This document shows, piece by piece, positions 1,518-13,590 of a stretch of DNA of 64,000 nt. The stretch is taken from positions 1,116,001 to 1,180,000 of the forward strand of contig NZ_NMUN01000004.1 of NCBI RefSeq assembly GCF_002812725.1, given 5' to 3'. Both the position numbers and the translations under genes were made by a program. Below the pieces are notes generated by a model, which ran no database searches, was not told where the DNA came from, and worked only from the letters and a program-made list of their open reading frames with translations. This DNA is from Microbacterium sp. BR1 (GTDB lineage: Bacteria; Actinomycetota; Actinomycetes; Actinomycetales; Microbacteriaceae). Positions within the stretch are counted from its first letter, which is position 1; every line of letters starts with the position of its first letter.

Positions 1518-3350
1518 CTAGGCCTTCGACGGAACGACGGATGCGCGGGCCCGCGCGACCGCCGCGACAGCACCGAGGGCCGCGACACCCGCCCAGATCA
1601 CGAGGCCGATCGCCGCCTGCAGCACGGCATGCAGCGAACCGCCGAGCAGGGCTTGCGTGCCCTGCAGCCCGAGGCTGAGCGGCAGCAGCGCGAGCGGCCC
1701 CGCGGCGATCGAATCCGCCGGCACCGGTCCGGCGATGCCCGCCGCGACGACCTGCACACCGAGCGCGACGACCGAGACGACCAGCCCCGCCCGACCGAGC
1801 AGACCGCAGAGCGCCTGGTGCACGAGAGCGAAGCACACCGACATCACGATCGAGAGCGCGAACGCGACGGCCATGCGATCGGGCGCGACACCCAGGAGCG
1901 CCACACCGACCCAGACCAGCAGGGCCTGGACGATCCCGACCACGGCACCGACGATCGCCGCCTGCCCCGCGATGCGACGGGCCGAGGCGGGCGTGCCGAG
2001 CGCCGCGCGCGAGAACGGAGCCACCACGAGCGAGGTCGCGAGCGCACCTAACCAGAGCGCGACGGGCACGAGTGCCGCCACGGCCGCCGCGCGGGCGCTG
2101 GAGGGACCCCCGACCGAGGCCGTGTCTACGCCGATGGGATCGGCGACGACCCCCGCGATCGTCTTCTGCTGATCTGCGGAGTACGCGGGGATGTCCGCGG
2201 CGGCGGTGTCGAGTCCCGATGCGAGCGCTCCCGATCCGGTCGCCAGTTCTCCGAGTCCCGCCCGCAGTTCGCCGGCTCCCTCGGCCAGGGCGCGCGCCCC
2301 CGCAGCGGCCTCCGCCTCGGCCTGGGCGAGCTGCCCGAGTCCGACAGCGACGGGTGCCGCGACTTCGGCGAGCGCTCCCGCACCGATCGCGACGGCCGCC
2401 GCATCGACGGAGTCTCCCGCCAGGGCGCCGGCGTGCGTCTGCAGCCGCGCGGCGGCGGCCGCGGCCTGCGCCCGCAGGGCCGTGATGTCGGCGAGGAGGT
2501 CCCCCGCCGGCCGCGCGGGGTCGAGCGCGATGAGCGCCGCGATCGCATCCAGCTCGGCCACACCGAGATCCTGCGCGAGAGCAAGTTCTTCCGCGACGAG
2601 GGCCTCGGCCGCCACGGACGCCGCGAGAGCTGCGGTGTCGGCCGATGCGGCTCCGCTGAGGGTGCCCAGGTCCCGCGCGCCCTGGGGCAGGGCGTCGAGG
2701 ATCCGCGCGATCTCGCCGATCCCGGCGGCCAGGTCGGAGCTGCCCGCCTCGATCCCGCCGGCGCCCTCGCCCGCGCCCTCGATACCCGAGGTCAGTTCTT
2801 TCGCACCGGATGCCGCCTGCCCGAGCGATCCCGACAGCTCCGCGAAAGCGCCCAGAGTGCCGGCGACGTACCCCGAGGTCAACTCGGCCGCGACACCGCG
2901 GGGCAACCCGGCAGCGACCGCGTCCGCAACCCTTCCCTCGACGAAGCCGTGGCGCGTGCTGGTCTGCACCTGCAGCTGAGCCACCGTCGGGTCAGCCGAG
3001 CCGAGCGTCGCGACGTTCTGGGAGAAGTCGGCGGGGATCGTCACGATCGCCTGGAAGCTGCCGTCGGTCAGTCCCGCCGACGCCGTACTCGCGTCCGTCA
3101 GCGTCCAGGTCAGGCCGTCCGGGCTCGTCAGAAGGTTCTCGGTGAGCAGCTTGCCCGCCGCCACGGGTTCTCCGGCCTGCTCGATCGGTGTGTCGAGATT
3201 CACGATCGCGGCCGACAGCGTCTCGTCGCTGCGGTGCGGCAGCATCGTGAGCAGGATGATCAGCGGAGCGGCCACGGCGAGCACGATGATGGCCGCGGCA
3301 CGCCGACGGGATCCGGCGGGAGCGGGGACGAGGCTCCAGAAGCTGGTCAC
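1518..3350 (-). CDS. YhgE/Pip-type membrane protein
   Basis: 610 aa from a GTG start that overlaps the MMPL stop codon by 4 nt (GTGA), so the two genes are translationally coupled. A longer open frame upstream was not used because it runs inside the MMPL gene. There is one N-terminal membrane helix (about 18-38), then a long Ala/Gly-rich extracytoplasmic region with repeated SG.GELATGSGALASG-like stretches, and about five C-terminal helices, the layout of the YhgE/Pip family (phage-infection-protein, ESX/ABC-2-like membrane proteins). No catalytic motif is visible. The coupling implies joint work with the MMPL protein, perhaps in exporting lipid or a small hydrophobic compound; the substrate is unknown. 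Confidence 0.75.
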   Translation of the reverse strand: MTSFWSLVPAPAGSRRRAAAIIVLAVAAPLIILLTMLPHRSDETLSAAIVNLDTPIEQAGEPVAAGKLLTENLLTSPDGLTWTLTDASTASAGLTDGSFQAIVTIPADFSQNVATLGSADPTVAQLQVQTSTRHGFVEGRVADAVAAGLPRGVAAELTSGYVAGTLGAFAELSGSLGQAASGAKELTSGIEGAGEGAGGIEAGSSDLAAGIGEIARILDALPQGARDLGTLSGAASADTAALAASVAAEALVAEELALAQDLGVAELDAIAALIALDPARPAGDLLADITALRAQAAAAAARLQTHAGALAGDSVDAAAVAIGAGALAEVAAPVAVGLGQLAQAEAEAAAGARALAEGAGELRAGLGELATGSGALASGLDTAAADIPAYSADQQKTIAGVVADPIGVDTASVGGPSSARAAAVAALVPVALWLGALATSLVVAPFSRAALGTPASARRIAGQAAIVGAVVGIVQALLVWVGVALLGVAPDRMAVAFALSIVMSVCFALVHQALCGLLGRAGLVVSVVALGVQVVAAGIAGPVPADSIAAGPLALLPLSLGLQGTQALLGGSLHAVLQAAIGLVIWAGVAALGAVAAVARARASVVPSKA

Positions 3351-6220
3351 GAGCGACTCCTCTCGAGTGCGGCGGCATCGACGCGCACCGAGACGACGAC
3401 GCGATCGGTGACCGGCACGAGCTCGTCGTCGACCGCGAGCACGGCCGTCGCCGGCGCGTCCAGCCGGCCCAGCACCGCGGCCACGACCTGCGGCGATCTC
3501 CCGCGCAGGTCGACCACGACGAGCGGCAGGCCGGACGACAGCGCGACCGCCACGGCGAGCGCCCACCGCCCGGCATCGTCCAGCCGCGCGACGAGGGTCT
3601 CGGGTCCCGTCTCGGCACCCACGGGTGCGCCGACGACGTCGATGAGGGCGTCGAAGGCCCGCGCGGCATCGTGTGTGCGTGCGGGCAGTTCGCGACGCGA
3701 GACACCGTTCAGGCGCAGCATCCCCTTCAGGTACTCGCCGACGGACTCGGCGTCCACGGCGGGGGACGCCATCTCGACGTGGGCACTCCGCGCCGCCAGC
3801 GCACGCCGCTCGAACGGCAGCAGACGACCCTGCACGGCCACGGAGCCCTCGACGTCGCCGGACCTCCCCGCCAGCACGGCGCTCACCCGGTCGGCGTGCT
3901 CGCCCCGCACCAGCAGCACCGCACGCGCGGGTACGCCGAATGATGCGGGCTCGAGGCCCCCGAAGGAGGCATCCTGCGCGTGCACACCCTCAGCTCGCTG
4001 CTCGTCACCGTCCCGCCACGTGCGCTGGGCGAGCATCCGCTGCACCGCGTCGCCCTCGATGTCGGCATCGGGCAACACGCGCGCGAGCCCGCGTGGCAGC
4101 CACCACGCGCGGTCGCCGAGCAGCGCCATGAGAGCCGGCACCAGGGTCATCCGCACGACGAACGCGTCGATCAGCACACCCACCGCCAGCGCGAGGGCGA
4201 TCGGCTGGATGATGGCGTTGCCCCCGGGGACGAAGGAGAAGAAGACGGAGAACATGATGAGGGCCGCGGCCGTCACCACGCGCGCGGAGGCCGAGAACCC
4301 CTCGAGCACGGATGCCCGGGCATCCCCCGTCGCCGCGTAGCGCTCACGCATCCGCGAGACGAGGAAGACGTGGTAATCCATCGCCAGGCCGAACAGCACG
4401 GCCATCACCAGGATCGGCATGAAGCTGATCACCGGGCCCACCTTCCCGACGCCGAGCAGGTCAGCCGCCCACCCCCACTCGAAGACGGCCGTCGACACGC
4501 CGAGCGCGGCACCCACCGTCAGCAGGTAGCCGAACGTCGCCGTCACGGGAACCGCGATCGAGCGGAACATGATCATCAGCAGCAGCAGGCACAGCCCGAC
4601 GACGACAAGGGCGAACGGCAGGAGCGCCGCGCCCAACCGGTCGGAGATGTCGATGGCGAGCGCCGTCTCACCCGTGACCTGGAACCCGAAACCGTGCGCG
4701 GTCTCGAAGGCCGGCGCCAGGTCGCGCAGCCGCTGCACGAGGTCGCCCGTCTCAGCCGAACTCGGCGCGCTGGTGGGGGTGATCGTCAGCACCGCGAGGT
4801 CGAGCGCCTCGTTGGGGAACGCCTGCGACGTCGTGGCGACGCCCTCGACCGACCCGAACTCGCCGTCGAGGGCGTCGAGCGCCTGCTCGACATCGAGCGT
4901 GCGGGAGATGTCCGACGTGATCAGCAAGGGGCCGTTGAATCCCGGACCGAACCCCTCGTCCAGCAGGTCGTAGGCGACGCGCGGCGGTGAGCCCGCCGGG
5001 TCGTACCCGGCATCCGGAAGCGTCAACCGCATCCCCGCGGCCGGCACGGCCAGGGCGAGCAGCACGACCACGACGATCGCCGCGGTGGCGAGCGGCGCCC
5101 GCGTCGCGATCCGCGCCCACGCGGGGCCCCGCTTCCGCGCATCCGGCTCGGCTTTCCCCGTCCGCTCCGCGCGCTTCCGCCGCGGCTTCGGGATGAGTCG
5201 CCGGCCGCACAGGGTCAGGATCGCCGGGAGGAGCGTGACGGCCACCGCCAACGCGCAGAGCACGGCCGCGGCGGCGCCGAGCCCCATGACCGTCAGAAAC
5301 GGGATGCCCGCGACCGCGAGCCCCAGCAGGGCGATCATGACGGTCAGGCCCGCGAAGACGACCGCCGTTCCCGCCGTCGCGATCGCCACGGCGACGGATT
5401 CGGCGACCGCCATGCCCTGCCGGAGGTTGCCACGATGCCGCGACGTGATGAGCAGCGCGTAGTCGATCCCCACCGCGAGGCCCAGCATCGTCGCAAGCAC
5501 GGGAGCGGTGGCCTGCACCGGCGCGAAGGCTGCGACGATCGTGATCGAGCTCGTCGCGACGCCGACGCCGATCGCCGCGGTGATGAGCGGCATCCCGGCG
5601 GCCAGCAGCGAGCCGAAGGTCACGGCCAGCACGACGTACGCGATCGCCATCCCGACCAGCTCCGTCCAATCGACGCCGGATGCGGCGGTCGGCACGATCC
5701 CCGAAACCGCCACCTGCAGACCGGCCTGGGTCAGCGGCGCCGTCGCCTCGTCGACCGCAGTGACCAGACTGGCCGGAATCGCATCGGCGGCGTCCGAGAG
5801 CTGCACGGCGATGAACGCCATCCGCCCCTCCGACGACACCTGGTCGGCGACGCCCGTGCCCGCGGGAGAGGAACCGCTCGCTGGCATCGGATACGGGCAT
5901 CCGACGTTCGTCACCCCCGCGACGACGGCCAGGCTCTCGCAGGCCGCGCCGATGGCATCCGCCTCGTCCGAGATCGCGGATCCGTTCGGGGCGACGACCA
6001 CGACACGTCCGCTCGCGCCGCTCAGCTGCGGAAAACGCTGCTCCAGGGTGTCGAGCGCGGCCTGGGCCTGAGTGCCGGGGATGTCGAAGGAGGACTGCAG
6101 GTGGTTGCCGAGCGCTGCGGCCGCGGTGCCACCACCGACGGCCAGGATGAGCCACGCGGCCAGCACCCACCACCGCCGTCGGGCGCAGAATCGACCTATT
6201 CGATAGAGAACGGAGGACAT
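3347..6220 (-). CDS. MMPL-family RND transporter with C-terminal degenerate ABC-ATPase-like domain
   Basis: 957 aa. Residues 1 to about 715 form a normal MMPL/RND transporter: a first helix, an extracytoplasmic loop, a six-helix block, a second loop and a second helix block. MMPL proteins use the proton gradient to move lipids or hydrophobic molecules out of the cell. Residues about 765-957 are an extra cytoplasmic part that follows the order of an ABC nucleotide-binding domain (VEGSVAVQGRLLPFERR, then ALAVAVALSSG, then LVVVDLRG). The Walker A loop has decayed to VRGEHADR and the Walker B acidic pair is lost. The tail overlaps the YhgE-like gene by 4 nt. The MMPL part is certain; the pseudo-ATPase reading is by eye. 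Confidence 0.85.
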   Translation of the reverse strand: MSSVLYRIGRFCARRRWWVLAAWLILAVGGGTAAAALGNHLQSSFDIPGTQAQAALDTLEQRFPQLSGASGRVVVVAPNGSAISDEADAIGAACESLAVVAGVTNVGCPYPMPASGSSPAGTGVADQVSSEGRMAFIAVQLSDAADAIPASLVTAVDEATAPLTQAGLQVAVSGIVPTAASGVDWTELVGMAIAYVVLAVTFGSLLAAGMPLITAAIGVGVATSSITIVAAFAPVQATAPVLATMLGLAVGIDYALLITSRHRGNLRQGMAVAESVAVAIATAGTAVVFAGLTVMIALLGLAVAGIPFLTVMGLGAAAAVLCALAVAVTLLPAILTLCGRRLIPKPRRKRAERTGKAEPDARKRGPAWARIATRAPLATAAIVVVVLLALAVPAAGMRLTLPDAGYDPAGSPPRVAYDLLDEGFGPGFNGPLLITSDISRTLDVEQALDALDGEFGSVEGVATTSQAFPNEALDLAVLTITPTSAPSSAETGDLVQRLRDLAPAFETAHGFGFQVTGETALAIDISDRLGAALLPFALVVVGLCLLLLMIMFRSIAVPVTATFGYLLTVGAALGVSTAVFEWGWAADLLGVGKVGPVISFMPILVMAVLFGLAMDYHVFLVSRMRERYAATGDARASVLEGFSASARVVTAAALIMFSVFFSFVPGGNAIIQPIALALAVGVLIDAFVVRMTLVPALMALLGDRAWWLPRGLARVLPDADIEGDAVQRMLAQRTWRDGDEQRAEGVHAQDASFGGLEPASFGVPARAVLLVRGEHADRVSAVLAGRSGDVEGSVAVQGRLLPFERRALAARSAHVEMASPAVDAESVGEYLKGMLRLNGVSRRELPARTHDAARAFDALIDVVGAPVGAETGPETLVARLDDAGRWALAVAVALSSGLPLVVVDLRGRSPQVVAAVLGRLDAPATAVLAVDDELVPVTDRVVVSVRVDAAALERSRS

Positions 6221-6552: not shown

Positions 6553-9099
6553 TCAGTCGCGGATGCTGGCGCCGAAGCGCTCGGCGGCCACGGCGACACC
6601 CGCGAGCTTGGCGTCGGACGCCTCCGCGGCCGTGAGCGTGCGGTCGGGAGCCCGGAAGCGCAGTGCGAACGTGAGGCTCTTCGACCCCTCGGGCACCCCC
6701 GTGCCGCGGTAGTCGTCGACCAGCCGCACCGACTCGAGCAACTCCACCGCACCCTGCGCGAGTGCGGCGCGCACCTCGGCGGCGGGAACGTCCGCGCCCA
6801 CGACGAGCGAGACATCCTGCGTCGCCGCGGGGAACCCCGACAGCGACGCCGCGACGACACGCGACGACACGAGCGAGAGCAGCAGGTCGAGGTTCAGCTC
6901 CGCGACGATCACGCGACCGGGAAGATCGGATGCCTCGGCCACCGCCGGCAGCAGTTCACCGACGTATCCGACCTCGACACGCGTCTGATCGGGGGTGTCC
7001 ACCGACAGCACACCGGTTCGGCCCGGGTGCAGAGCAGCCCGAGCGCCCTGGGCTACGTCGATCGAGACGCCGGCCGCCGCCGCGATGACGCGCACGGCGT
7101 CGAGCGCCGCACCCAGATCGGCGGGCTCGGCTGCACGGCCGGGCTGCTTGGGCGCGAGGTTGCCGGTCAGCAGAACCGCGACGTGCCGGGGCTGGGGCGG
7201 GATCGACGCGTTCAGCTCGGCCAGCACGTCGTCGCTCGGACGCTCGGCGAGCGGCGGCACGAACGACGTGCCGTACTCGACCCCGGGCTCGGGCGCGAAC
7301 ACGCTGTCCGTCTCGAAGATCGTCAGGTCCGTGAGGCCGCGCGAGAGGTTGCGATGCGCGACCTGCAGCAGCGCGGGCACGAGCGAACGGCGCAGGAAAG
7401 GCGCCTGGCCGTCGAGAGGGTTCGCGAGCTTGATGCTCGGCAGGTGCTCGCCGGATGCCGAGCCGTGCAAGTCGTTCAGGGCCTCGGTCGTGAACGGGAA
7501 CGACGGGGTCTCGACGAAGCCGGCCGCGGCGAGCGCGTTCGCGACACGACGACGGCCCTGCTGAGCCTCGGTCAGACCGCGGCCCGACGGCGGGGTCGGC
7601 AGCACCGACGGGATCTGGTCGTACCCCTCGATACGCGCGACCTCTTCGGCGAGCGTCCACTTGTCGGTCAGGTCCGGGCGCCACGTCGGCGGCGTCACGA
7701 GGTCGTCAGACTCGCGTTCCCGCACGTCGCACCCGATCATCTCGAGCGCCGCGCGGATCTGTTCCGGGGCGTACTCCACACCGATGACGGAGGAGACGAA
7801 CCCACGCGGCAGTTCGATCGCGGGGGCCGAGTAGGCATGCATCAGCGCGCCGCCCGCGCGGGTGTCGGTCCCGCCCGCGAGTTCGACCATCAGTTCGGCA
7901 ACCCGCGCCGCCGCGACGAACGGGATAGCGGGGTCGACACCGCGCTCGAAGCGGCGGGATGCCTCGGACGGCAGCTTGTGCCGTCGGGCCGTGCGCGCGA
8001 TCGTGACCGTGTCGAACGTCGCCGCCTCGATCAGGACGTTGCGCGTGGCATCCGTCATCTCGGTCGTACCGCCGCCCATCACGCCGGCGAGTCCGATCGG
8101 GCCCGACTCGTCGGTGATTAGCAGGTCTTCCGGGCTGAGGTCGCGCACCTTGCCGTCGAGCGTCTCGAGCTTCTCGCCCACGGTCGCGCGGCGCACCGTG
8201 ATGCCGCCCTGCAGCCTGTCGAGGTCGTACCCGTGGATCGGCTGACCGAGCTCGAGCATGACGTAGTTCGTGATGTCGATCAGGATGCCGAGCGAGCGGA
8301 TGCCCGCGAGCGTGAGCCGCGCGATCATCCACGGCGGCGTGGGCCGAGTCGGGTCGACGTCGCGCACGATGCGCGCCACGAATTCGGATGCGCCGACGCG
8401 GCCGCGGATCGGGGTGTCGTCGACGACCGCGACGGAGAAGGCGCTCTCGTCGGTCAGGTTGACCTCGCCCCACACCTTCGCGCCCGGGTCTCGGAAGGCC
8501 GCGCCGGTCGAGTGCGAATACTCGCGAGCAACGCCACGGATCGACAGCGCGTATCCGCGGTCGGGCGTGACATTGATCTCGACCGCGACGTCGTCGAGCC
8601 CGAGCAGCGCGATCGCGTCGGTCCCGACGGGGGCGTCGATGCCCAGTTCGGCCAGGCGCAGGATGCCGGCGTGCTCGTCGCCGAGACCCAGCTCGCGCGC
8701 CGAGGCGATCATGCCGTCCGACACATGACCGTAGGTCTTGCGCGCGGCGATCGGGAACGGCCCGGGCAGCACGGCGCCGGGCAGGGTCACGACGACCTTG
8801 TCACCGACGAAGAAGTTGCCGGCGCCGCAGACGATGCCGTGCACCGCCGGACCGCCGTCCGCGGCGGTCTCGCCCTCCGGCGCGACCTGCACCTGACACC
8901 AGCGGATCGTCTTGCCGTTCGACTGCGGCTCCTCTTCGAACGAGAGCACCTCGCCGACGACGACGGGACCCGTCACCTCGAACCGATGGACGTCCTCCTC
9001 TTCGAACCCGACGCGCACGAGAGCTTCGAGCACGTCCTCGGGCGACGCATCCGTCGGCACATCGACGTACTCACGCAACCACGACAGCGGAACGCGCAT
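6553..9099 (-). CDS. pheT: Phenylalanyl-tRNA synthetase beta subunit
   Basis: 848 aa, the usual size. It starts MRVPLSWLREYVD at an ATG that overlaps the pheS stop by one base (TGATG); the longer open frame upstream is inside pheS. Domains in order are an OB-fold tRNA-binding domain (about 40-150), B3/B4 editing, B5, the catalytic-like core, and a C-terminal anticodon-binding FDX-ACB domain. With PheS it forms the (alpha-beta)2 enzyme that charges tRNA-Phe. It is translationally coupled to pheS. No T-box or attenuator peptide is evident upstream of the pair. Confidence 0.97.
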   Translation of the reverse strand: MRVPLSWLREYVDVPTDASPEDVLEALVRVGFEEEDVHRFEVTGPVVVGEVLSFEEEPQSNGKTIRWCQVQVAPEGETAADGGPAVHGIVCGAGNFFVGDKVVVTLPGAVLPGPFPIAARKTYGHVSDGMIASARELGLGDEHAGILRLAELGIDAPVGTDAIALLGLDDVAVEINVTPDRGYALSIRGVAREYSHSTGAAFRDPGAKVWGEVNLTDESAFSVAVVDDTPIRGRVGASEFVARIVRDVDPTRPTPPWMIARLTLAGIRSLGILIDITNYVMLELGQPIHGYDLDRLQGGITVRRATVGEKLETLDGKVRDLSPEDLLITDESGPIGLAGVMGGGTTEMTDATRNVLIEAATFDTVTIARTARRHKLPSEASRRFERGVDPAIPFVAAARVAELMVELAGGTDTRAGGALMHAYSAPAIELPRGFVSSVIGVEYAPEQIRAALEMIGCDVRERESDDLVTPPTWRPDLTDKWTLAEEVARIEGYDQIPSVLPTPPSGRGLTEAQQGRRRVANALAAAGFVETPSFPFTTEALNDLHGSASGEHLPSIKLANPLDGQAPFLRRSLVPALLQVAHRNLSRGLTDLTIFETDSVFAPEPGVEYGTSFVPPLAERPSDDVLAELNASIPPQPRHVAVLLTGNLAPKQPGRAAEPADLGAALDAVRVIAAAAGVSIDVAQGARAALHPGRTGVLSVDTPDQTRVEVGYVGELLPAVAEASDLPGRVIVAELNLDLLLSLVSSRVVAASLSGFPAATQDVSLVVGADVPAAEVRAALAQGAVELLESVRLVDDYRGTGVPEGSKSLTFALRFRAPDRTLTAAEASDAKLAGVAVAAERFGASIRD

Positions 9100-10139
9100 C
9101 AGACCACCATCCCGAACTGCTCGCTGAAGCGGACATCGCCCTCGGCCATGTCGCGCATGTCCTGCACGTCGCTGCGGAACATCAGCGTCCGCTCGATGCC
9201 CATCCCGAACGCGAAGCCCGAGTACACCTCGGGGTCGATGCCCGCGGCCCGGAGGACGTTGGGGTTGACCATTCCGCAGCCGCCCCACTCGATCCAGCGC
9301 GCACCGCCCTTGAAGGTCGGGTGCCAGAGGTCGAGTTCGGCCGAGGGCTCGGTGAACGGGAAGTAGTTGGCGCGGAAGCGGGTCTTCGCCTCGGGCCCGA
9401 ACAGAACGCGCGCGGCGTGGTCGAGCGTGCCCTTGAGATGCGCCATCGTGATGCCCTTGTCGATCACGAGCCCCTCGAACTGCGTGAAGACGGGCAGGTG
9501 CGTCGAGTCGAACTCGTCGGTGCGGTAGACCCGGCCCGGGCAGAGCACGTAGATCGGGATGTCGCGCTCGAGCATCGAGCGGACCTGCACGGGGCTCGTG
9601 TGCGTGCGCATGACGAGGTGACGGTCGACCGGGTCGACGAAGAAGGTGTCCTGCATCTGACGTGCCGGGTGGTCGACGTCGAAGTTGAGGGCGTCGAAGT
9701 TGAACCACTCGTGCTCGAGCTCGGGTCCCTCGGCGATCTCCCACCCCATGCCGACGAAGATGTCGCTGACCTGATCCTGCAGCAGGGTGAGCGGATGCCT
9801 CGCGCCCACGCGCGTCCGGGACGCCACAGCGGTGATGTCGATCCGCTCCGCCTCGAGCCGGGCGGCCGTCTCGGCCTCGACCAGCTCCGCCTCGCGCGCG
9901 GCGAGCGCCTGCGCGACACGTCCGCGGGCCTGGCCCATGAGCTTGCCGAACTCGGCCTTCTGGTCCTTCGGCACATCGCGCATGCGGGAGTTCAGCTGGG
10001 CGAGGGGCGAACCCTCCCCCGCGTGTGCGGCGCGCGCGGCCTTGACGGCGGTGGTGTCGCCGGCCGACGCGATGGCCTCGAGCGCTGCCGCGACCGCGGC
10101 GTCCACGGCTTCAGGGGTGATCTCAGGAGTGTCGGACAC
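9099..10139 (-). CDS. pheS: Phenylalanyl-tRNA synthetase alpha subunit
   Basis: 346 aa with an N-terminal coiled-coil tRNA-binding arm and a class II catalytic core. The sequences THTSPVQ, GRVYR.DEFD and the C-terminal FGMGIERT (motif 3) are all present. The start is a GTG reached 8 nt after TAGACT, a -10-like hexamer, so the mRNA has almost no leader. Its stop codon overlaps the pheT ATG. Confidence 0.97.
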   Translation of the reverse strand: MSDTPEITPEAVDAAVAAALEAIASAGDTTAVKAARAAHAGEGSPLAQLNSRMRDVPKDQKAEFGKLMGQARGRVAQALAAREAELVEAETAARLEAERIDITAVASRTRVGARHPLTLLQDQVSDIFVGMGWEIAEGPELEHEWFNFDALNFDVDHPARQMQDTFFVDPVDRHLVMRTHTSPVQVRSMLERDIPIYVLCPGRVYRTDEFDSTHLPVFTQFEGLVIDKGITMAHLKGTLDHAARVLFGPEAKTRFRANYFPFTEPSAELDLWHPTFKGGARWIEWGGCGMVNPNVLRAAGIDPEVYSGFAFGMGIERTLMFRSDVQDMRDMAEGDVRFSEQFGMVV

Positions 10140-12819: not shown

Positions 12820-13590
12820 TCAGTGCGTGATGAGTTTGGACAGGAAGTCCTTCGCACGATCCGTCTCCGGATGCGTGAAGAAGTCGTCGGGCTTCTGGTC
12901 TTCGAGGATCTTGCCGTCGGCCATGAACACGACCCGATCGGCGGCCTTGCGGGCGAAGCCCATCTCGTGGGTGACGACGATCATCGTCATGCCGTCCCGG
13001 GCGAGGCCGACCATCACATCCAGAACCTCGTTGATCATCTCGGGGTCGAGAGCGCTCGTCGGCTCATCGAACAACATGACCTTGGGGTTCATGGCCAGCG
13101 CTCGGGCGATGGCGACACGCTGCTGCTGACCGCCCGACAACTGCGCCGGGAGCTTGGATGCCTGATGCCCGACGCCGACCCGATCGAGCAGAACCTTGGC
13201 CTCGCGCTCCGCGTCCGCCTTCTTCATCTTGCGGACCTTGATCGGCCCGAGGGTGACGTTCTCGAGGATCGTCAGGTGCGCGAAGAGATTGAACGACTGG
13301 AACACCATCCCCACGTCGGCGCGCAGGTTGGCGAGCCCCTTGCCCTCCCTGGGCAGCTCTCTCCCGTCGATCGTGATGGACCCACTCGTAATCGTCTCGA
13401 GGCGGTTGATCGTGCGGCAGAGCGTCGACTTGCCAGAACCCGAGGGACCGATCACGACGACGACCTCGCCCTCGTTGACCGTCAGATCGATGTCGGTGAG
13501 CGCCTGGAAGTCGCCGTAGTGCTTCTGGACGTCCCTCAGAACGACGAGGGGCACACCCGTCTGCACGTGATTGGTGCCGTTGGATACCAT
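12820..13590 (-). CDS. gluA: Glutamate ABC transporter ATP-binding protein (GluA-like)
   Basis: 256 aa ABC ATPase with Walker [11 protein letters not shown]-loop VFQSFNLF, signature LSGGQQQR, Walker [13 protein letters not shown] and the switch His in VVTHEMGFA, typical of GlnQ-type amino-acid importers. I chose the ATG at 13590, not an in-frame GTG two codons earlier, because TAGGGT lies exactly 6 nt before the ATG (leaderless pattern) and there is no ribosome-binding site. It heads the gluABCD operon. Confidence 0.93.

Follow-up and report, generated by a model that had tools for sequence, protein, structure and literature searches.

An MMPL transporter of Microbacterium sp. BR1 carries a degenerate ABC nucleotide-binding domain and is encoded beside a YhgE-like membrane protein

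The MMPL-YhgE locus

We analyzed a 64,000-nucleotide stretch of the Microbacterium sp. BR1 genome (the window), in which an open reading frame (ORF) on the minus strand, positions 3347-6220, encodes an MMPL transporter of 957 amino acids (aa) and is followed directly by the gene for a YhgE-like membrane protein. By our division, the MMPL core reaches to about residue 720, and the 237 residues after it form a tail, numbered from aa 721 as residue 1. A first-pass annotation, made from the sequence alone, had noted that this tail follows the order of an ATP-binding cassette (ABC) nucleotide-binding domain, and both a structure model and structure matches bear this out. The features of the locus are as follows.

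1518-3350, minus strand: YhgE-like membrane protein, 610 aa, read from the sequence; it starts with GTG and overlaps the end of the MMPL gene by 4 nucleotides (nt)
3368-4012, minus strand: degenerate ABC nucleotide-binding domain, about aa 737-951 (model residues 17-231), from the structure model and structure comparison
3497-3529, minus strand: Walker B equivalent LPLVVVDLRGR, aa 898-908, from the motif alignment; Asp904 is kept and the catalytic Glu is replaced by Leu
3563-3583, minus strand: signature-motif equivalent LDDAGRW, aa 880-886, from the motif alignment and the long-form profile
3863-3904, minus strand: Walker A equivalent GEHADRVSAVLAGR, aa 773-786, without GK[S/T], from the motif alignment
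4013-4057, minus strand: junction helix from MMPL to the ABC-like domain, aa 722-736, a helix of the model (tail residues 2-16)
4061-6220, minus strand: MMPL (RND-type) transporter core, aa 1-720; PF03176, 265.5 bits against a cut-off of 20.5
4376-4378, minus strand: Asp615 of the Asp-Tyr pair in transmembrane helix 10 (TM10), proton relay; Asp and Tyr in 62/62 tailed rows with letters (1 gap) and 17/17 tail-less rows
5462-5464, minus strand: Asp253 of the Asp-Tyr pair in TM4, proton relay; Asp and Tyr in 59/59 tailed rows with letters (4 gaps) and 17/17 tail-less rows

The Pfam score of the core, well above the cut-off, places the protein in the MMPL family, and both relay pairs are present (D253-Y254 and D615-Y616). 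By analogy with MmpL3, we take these pairs to be the proton carriers. In the junction helix, Glu2 and Gly3 (tail numbering) are invariant and Trp15 is nearly so among 64 tails. The genome has six MMPL frames, two of them tailed.

The tail has the fold of an ABC nucleotide-binding domain

The tail has an ABC fold and is homologous to ABC nucleotide-binding domains, which we regard as beyond reasonable doubt. Its structure model, computed from an alignment (A4) of the window tail and 63 relatives, has a mean pLDDT of 89.3 and a pTM of 0.86, and its strands and helices come in the order of an ABC nucleotide-binding domain. The segment VQGRLLPFERR lies on a strand pair (tail residues 70-76 and 79-81), and LVVVD forms the strand 180-184. 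The first-pass annotation had put the domain at 3347-3928; the region was right and the start was not, the domain spanning 3368-4012.

Foldseek, run with the model, returned 1037 PDB matches at E <= 1e-3. Among the 50 matches listed, 48 are ABC proteins by title or known identity, and the titles of the other two, 7ekl and 7ekm, are silent on the point. In VIA-align, which compares only Foldseek's own matches, Z 8 was reached by all 998 compared chains, and the best match was the ABC ATPase 4yer_A (Z 18.5; root mean square deviation [rmsd], 2.7 over 200 residues). A structure prediction with a fold search was the check that the first-pass annotation had proposed, and the predicted fold is that of an ABC ATPase domain.

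Profiles led to the same family. The A4 profile of all tails matched 506 PDB sequences at E <= 1, the best being ABCA3 at 2.3e-14; 59 of the 60 matches listed are ABC proteins, judged by name or known identity, and the remaining one is labelled Lipase B. A profile of 17 long-form tails that includes the window's (A6) gave 239 matches with a best E of 2.9e-8, and its alignment spans the signature and Walker B regions, TmrB being aligned through its LSGGQ region. By name or known identity, all 60 matches listed for A6 are ABC proteins. Two fused relatives pass the Pfam ABC_tran cut-off of 25, those of Arenivirga flava (locus L107, 32.1 bits) and Diaminobutyricibacter tongyongensis (L117, 27.7 bits).

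The window tail alone found no Pfam or NCBIfam family in scans with HMMER, whose filters discard most matches above E 0.1, and for PF00005 no match was reported at all, the curated cut-off included. This amounts to an annotation gap, in that both databases leave the tail unnamed. Searched singly against the PDB, the tail brought up three matches to unrelated proteins (E 0.08-0.43), which we rejected.

The ATP site has decayed

Motifs were compared in an alignment of 95 fused tails (91 of them different), 36 stand-alone domains (described below), and 20 ordinary ABC ATPases of the window genome. Absent from the 95-row table are L084, L088, L090, L093, L094, and L096 (6 of 20 family loci) and the G078 pieces L014, L052, and L053; L164 was left out of alignment A7.

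The Walker A loop is degenerate, as the first-pass annotation had it. It reads LLVRGEHADRVSAVLAGR in the model, and where GxxxxGK[S/T] would be expected the window has GEHADRVS. The Walker A Lys is found in 2/95 fused tails, 10/36 stand-alone domains, and 20/20 ordinary ABC ATPases. The two fused tails, which keep GKS, are those of A. flava and D. tongyongensis; the looser G[KR][ST] is kept at four fused loci (L107, L117, L131, and L175, with L101 being the same place as L131). The ABC signature and the helix that follows it have their counterpart in the stretch LDDAGRWALAVAVALS, so that more of the domain is left than had been listed at first pass; in place of LSGGQ the window has LDDAGR. The acidic pair of Walker B had been called missing. 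Its catalytic Glu is indeed lost, as it is in most relatives (present in 6/95 fused, 0/36 stand-alone, and 20/20 ordinary domains), but Asp904 aligns with the Walker B Asp, which is kept in 75/95, 18/36, and 20/20, respectively. At the H-loop, the window has Asp instead of His, and His is not among the eight commonest letters of the fused group. Of the ATP-site motifs, then, only the Walker B Asp remains in the window tail, and the protein very probably hydrolyzes no ATP. Judged from these residues and the relay pairs, tailed MMPL proteins appear to have kept their proton engine and lost their ATP engine.

Fused tails are of two lengths in the stretch of the helical subdomain, with 27 to 41 residues in 47/95 and 79 to 112 in 48/95; this stretch has 77 to 98 residues in the 20 ordinary ABC ATPases and 82 to 119 in the 36 stand-alone domains. 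The window tail is of the long kind. On a tree of YhgE proteins (below), the two lengths require one change among the 77 fused rows. The Walker A Lys is kept by two rows of this tree; without regain, its pattern calls for ten or more losses within the fused clade, and plain parsimony with regain allowed needs three Lys changes over all rows. Stages of decay are visible, from the tails that keep GK[S/T] in Arenivirga and Diaminobutyricibacter to the dead tail of the window.

The tail is under purifying selection and is less constrained than the core. In nine pairs, dN/dS was 0.14 to 0.41 for the tail and 0.05 to 0.17 for the core; for the window and its nearest relative, the values were 0.41 and 0.14.

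Tailed MMPL genes are followed by YhgE

The gene pairing was examined at the best 80 of at least 575 confirmed candidate loci from named genomes, where YhgE was sought with the window's own protein (E <= 1e-4) and an extension counted as a tail at 120 aa or more and otherwise as a short end. By this measure, 63 MMPLs were tailed and 17 tail-less. YhgE lay directly downstream of the tailed MMPL in 62/63 loci, and the contig of the 63rd ends 17 nt further on; it was found in the locus of a tail-less MMPL in 0/17. Counted from a start codon in the YhgE frame to the MMPL stop, the two genes overlap by 4 nt in 51 of the 62 loci and by 1 nt in 3, and 8 are arranged otherwise. The order MMPL, tail, YhgE also holds in 20/20 further loci, including a second copy in the window genome, whose two YhgE matches each stand directly behind one of its two tailed MMPLs. 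This second pair (L082, 4795-9551, contig 8) has a tail that reads like the short kind without the helical subdomain.

A tree of MMPL cores (80 rows), from which L129 was left out because it is split over two ORFs, sets the 63 tailed rows, the window among them, behind one branch with support 100; the presence of a tail requires 1 change, against a mean of 15.7 after shuffling. The first-pass annotation had regarded such a domain as unusual for MMPL proteins; in this clade, which occurs widely among Actinomycetota, it is not.

YhgE resembles the membrane part of type V ABC transporters

YhgE/Pip is known mainly as a phage-infection protein. The window YhgE scores below the cut-offs of both of its NCBIfam models, with 86.9 bits against 96.15 for TIGR03061 (E 1.1e-24) and 65.8 against 102.2 for TIGR03062 (E 4e-18). 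The second YhgE copy of the genome passes TIGR03061 (107.8 bits), and the window protein is nested among the MMPL-linked YhgE rows of the family tree, by which we assign it to the family. Its model (pLDDT 78.9; pTM 0.55) consists of one helix, a long helical region of partly low confidence, and, after it, more membrane-type helices. The model has the membrane fold of 1 + 5 helices seen in ABCG and ABCA transporters: in VIA-align, ABCG2 (Z 17.4; rmsd, 3.0 over 209 residues), ABCG1, and ABCG5/8 ranked top with ABCA1 close behind, on a scale where about Z 14 can be attained by unrelated, mostly helical models. Foldseek with the same model gave nothing at E <= 1e-3, its best match being an ABC-2 domain (3cni, 3.1e-3). 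For Pfam ABC2_membrane_3, the window YhgE falls just short of the cut-off of 31.6 with 31.2 bits, and the homologues at L082 (48.6 bits) and L226 (77.9 bits) pass it. A PDB profile search with YhgE listed for the most part coiled-coil proteins and others with long helices, owing to its heptad region, and was set aside as uninformative on the membrane part.

The YhgE membrane part thus resembles, in the model, type V ABC permeases (ABCG/ABCA). The resemblance to ABC-2 type membrane subunits that had been proposed at first pass is upheld by the ABC-2/type V look of the model and by the homologues that pass ABC2_membrane_3. One report (PMC3924187) notes putative ABC-2 transport proteins among Pip-family homologues. 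In the extract available of another (PMC12584985), a YhgE/Pip gene lies upstream of Mce genes in Mycobacterium avium, and an MMPL pairing is not mentioned there.

Stand-alone ABC-like genes accompany YhgE where MMPL does not

As a comparison sample, we used 40 YhgE loci of the order that do not adjoin a tailed MMPL. No MMPL was present at any of them (0/40, in fetched stretches of 7.5 kb or less), and 36/40, among loci L224 to L260, have a stand-alone ABC-like gene beside YhgE; 24 of these genes were found with the tail profile and 12 more with profiles built from those 24. Stand-alone versions next to yhgE-like genes, for which the first-pass annotation had suggested a search, therefore exist. 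L257 lies at a contig end.

A YhgE tree (FastTree, 116 proteins), made without L136 and L257, whose YhgE pieces are too short, has one branch with support 100 that parts 77 MMPL-linked proteins from 39 others, and 36 of the 39 have a stand-alone domain. Kind of partner requires 1 change on this tree against a shuffled mean of 32.6. YhgE is the constant gene partner, and the stand-alone ABC-like genes are the relatives of the tail; we hold both with high confidence. As drawn, the tree has L262 and L263 branching at the base of the MMPL-linked side.

Among the stand-alone domains, 14/36 have G[KR][ST] (10 of them with Lys) and 22/36 have no Walker A. Genes of the latter sort stand by YhgE at L230, L234, L237, L239, L243 to L247, L260, and others, and would make up another family of pseudo-ATPases; L234 and L244, which were tested, matched no Pfam family at E <= 0.1. 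The GKT-bearing domains of L225 to L229, L249, L250, L253, and L258 are without LSGGQ and without the catalytic Glu, which is Asp or Asn in the rows shown. Such domains may be slow or odd ATPases.

Distribution and neighboring genes

These best 80 loci come from Microbacterium, Agromyces, Leifsonia, Rathayibacter, Brevibacterium, Brachybacterium, Propionibacteriaceae, Nocardioides, Saccharopolyspora, and others, all of them Actinomycetota as far as record titles tell. The single window tail, searched against 58 relatives including its own genome, gave 2 matches at E <= 0.001, its own and one with an internal stop. Among 366 Microbacterium genomes, 13 matched at E <= 2e-16, its own included. 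A broader profile (A2) matched 285/398 genomes and 73/85 genera of the family at E <= 1e-4, an upper bound because tail profiles also match ordinary ABC ATPases; the A2 matches listed have frames of at least 928 aa, save five of 511 to 693 aa. The A4 profile cannot count tails at all, since ordinary ABC ATPases match it too (108/109 genomes at E <= 1e-5).

Weak genus-level matches (E about 1e-4) in frames of 268 to 278 aa were set aside. Eight such loci, L043 to L050, were read. Five of them (L044 to L047 and L049) have a 267-aa ORF starting MLSIGAFAQIGQVTH, which resembles a MerR-family regulator. At L043, L048, and L050, the gene caller kept no tail-matching ORF, and an MMPL or YhgE match was found in 0/8.

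By our reading, the pair stands between pheT-like and argC-like genes in relatives (L033, L034, L036, L037, and others). In the window, it is flanked by 314-1303 and 6553-9744, and an epimerase-like ORF presumably takes the place on the argC side. An ordinary ABC ATPase gene at window 13054-13500 has the strongest PF00005 score of the genome among the matches listed. The MMPL ORF is split over two frames in L054 (2245-5072) and in L129, and L052 is without a core stretch; these may be real breaks or faults of sequencing or assembly.

A proposed pseudo-ATPase adapter as the best explanation

Our best explanation for the locus as a whole, held with modest confidence, is a pseudo-ATPase adapter that joins YhgE to a proton-driven MMPL. 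In this view, a proton-driven MMPL transporter acquired at its C terminus an ABC nucleotide-binding domain akin to the ABC-like subunit dedicated to YhgE-type permeases, and the domain lost its ATP-hydrolyzing residues, becoming a pseudo-ATPase. As a nonhydrolyzing adapter, the tail would keep the cytoplasmic docking role of the ABC subunit and tie the YhgE permease, a putative type V (ABC-2) half transporter, to the MMPL, whose proton relay would replace ATP as the energy source of the joint exporter. The parts of this explanation differ in strength. That the tail docks directly on YhgE is probable; that the proton-driven MMPL powers or gates YhgE is a tentative suggestion, and a lipid-like substrate is a guess that we hold just as loosely. 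The broadest version, an engine-swapped class in which the ATPase of a type V permease was welded to an MMPL, its catalysis was repeatedly lost, and the proton-motive force drives the permease with the dead ATPase as transmission, is in our judgment somewhat unlikely.

Expression in favor of the explanation is on record for Saccharopolyspora hirsuta grown with cholesterol. According to PMC9782250, the YhgE gene F1721_04135 was up 3.82-fold and the MMPL gene F1721_04140 3.33-fold at 24 h; their locus tags are neighboring, and both are among 28 induced genes.

Several observations weigh against the adapter explanation. The first-pass annotation had suggested a platform for the YhgE-like protein, which fits the pairing (62/62 tailed loci that could be judged), the split of the YhgE tree by partner, and the likeness of YhgE to ABC-2/type V permeases, but the conservation of the coupling loop gave it no support: the YhgE loop expected to be the coupling helix has a mean entropy of 2.24, against 1.95 to 2.13 in six membrane helices, which is a weak test. 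In ordinary ABC transporters, the helical subdomain helps form the docking groove; 47/95 fused tails are without it, and therefore docking of the standard kind is hardly possible for them. In the tree of ABC domains, the fused rows need one change, with a support of only 46, and no ABC-like or MMPL partner was found for YhgE at L261, L262, and L263. GK[S/T] persists in 2/95 fused tails, so some have escaped its loss, and stand-alone domains have lost the ATP site as well (26/36 are without the Lys), which shows that such loss can occur without fusion. In 9/9 pairs, the evolutionary rate of the tail exceeds that of the MMPL core. A profile built only from the 12-sequence clade of the window finds no ABC ATPase at a significant level (best ABC match, E 0.75), so that the link by sequence depends on intermediate tails, and on structure besides; we read this miss as a measure of how far the clade has drifted. 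Finally, the tail was seen at four other Saccharopolyspora loci (L112, L114, L116, and L118), and the induced S. hirsuta MMPL may bear one too.

The best of the rival explanations, which we nevertheless consider unlikely, makes the tail a sensor of nucleotide or state that binds a ligand without hydrolysis and switches the MMPL, with YhgE merely cotranscribed. The Walker B Asp of 75/95 fused tails and the G[KR][ST] of four loci would suit such a role, as would the covalent link to the MMPL, which is apt for regulation in cis. Both the Walker A Lys and LSGGQ, however, are missing from the window tail, and in the best 80 loci a tail occurs only where YhgE adjoins or the contig ends, which is unexpected for a pure regulator of the MMPL. 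A further rival, quite unlikely, is the case of two separate transporters in one operon, where the tail, as an ATP-free dimer of ABC domains, would aid MMPL dimers or oligomers and YhgE would be independent. ABC domains dimerize as a rule, as is well established, and this reading draws further on the docking being inferential and on a coupling loop that is not specially conserved. Against it stand the YhgE loci without a tailed MMPL: because these have a stand-alone domain in 36/40 and an MMPL in 0/40, YhgE and not the MMPL is the more constant partner of the domain.

That the tail is a relic, the jobless and drifting leftover of an old gene fusion, is improbable. Its faster evolution, the loss of motifs, and the missing helical subdomain in 47/95 would all be expected of a relic, whereas dN/dS of 0.14 to 0.41 in nine pairs, a confidently folded model, and a spread over many families of Actinomycetota would not; a relic should also be lost now and then with MMPL and YhgE retained, and YhgE was found at 0/17 tail-less MMPLs. 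As for a chance resemblance, in which an unrelated domain merely reads like an ABC ATPase, the window tail by itself matches no family and the 12-sequence profile has no significant ABC match, but with the tail model, the structure matches, the wider profiles, and the relatives above the ABC_tran cut-off, its probability is close to negligible.

Significance and comparison with known systems

Among the matches listed by the literature search, no title dealt with an MMPL-ABC fusion or with MMPL and YhgE as one system. The parts are known, and their combination appears to be new. One protein here joins the proton-driven RND/MMPL proteins to the ATP-driven ABC proteins, two superfamilies that textbooks keep apart. 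YhgE/Pip acquires a genetic partner and a likely class of mechanism, and the question of whether ATP hydrolysis is dispensable to an ABC permease becomes directly testable.

The known system that comes to mind is the export of the mycobacterial envelope lipid PDIM, for which PMC11539658 describes MmpL7 and the ABC transporter DrrABC as both needed. The authors of that report suggest that MmpL7 is a scaffold with DrrABC; according to the same report, MmpL7 is without the proton-relay residues and the ABC ATPase has classical Walker motifs. The window system is its mirror image, with the relay intact and the ABC domain dead and fused to the MMPL. The YhgE/Pip loci with a stand-alone ABC-like gene share with it the membrane family and the kind of domain adjoining (36/40 loci); they differ in that they have no MMPL (0/40), the domain is unfused, and the Walker A Lys is kept in 10/36 against 2/95 fused tails. 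With type V ABC transporters (ABCG/ABCA), the likeness lies in the membrane part of YhgE (ABCG2) and the tail (ABCA3), although the nucleotide-binding domain of the window is dead and sits on another protein, and YhgE adds a long, predicted helical region outside the membrane part. With MmpL3-type MMPL/RND transporters, the window protein shares the Pfam MMPL family and the Asp-Tyr pairs of TM4 and TM10, and what sets it apart is its C-terminal extension of about 237 aa, the ABC domain.

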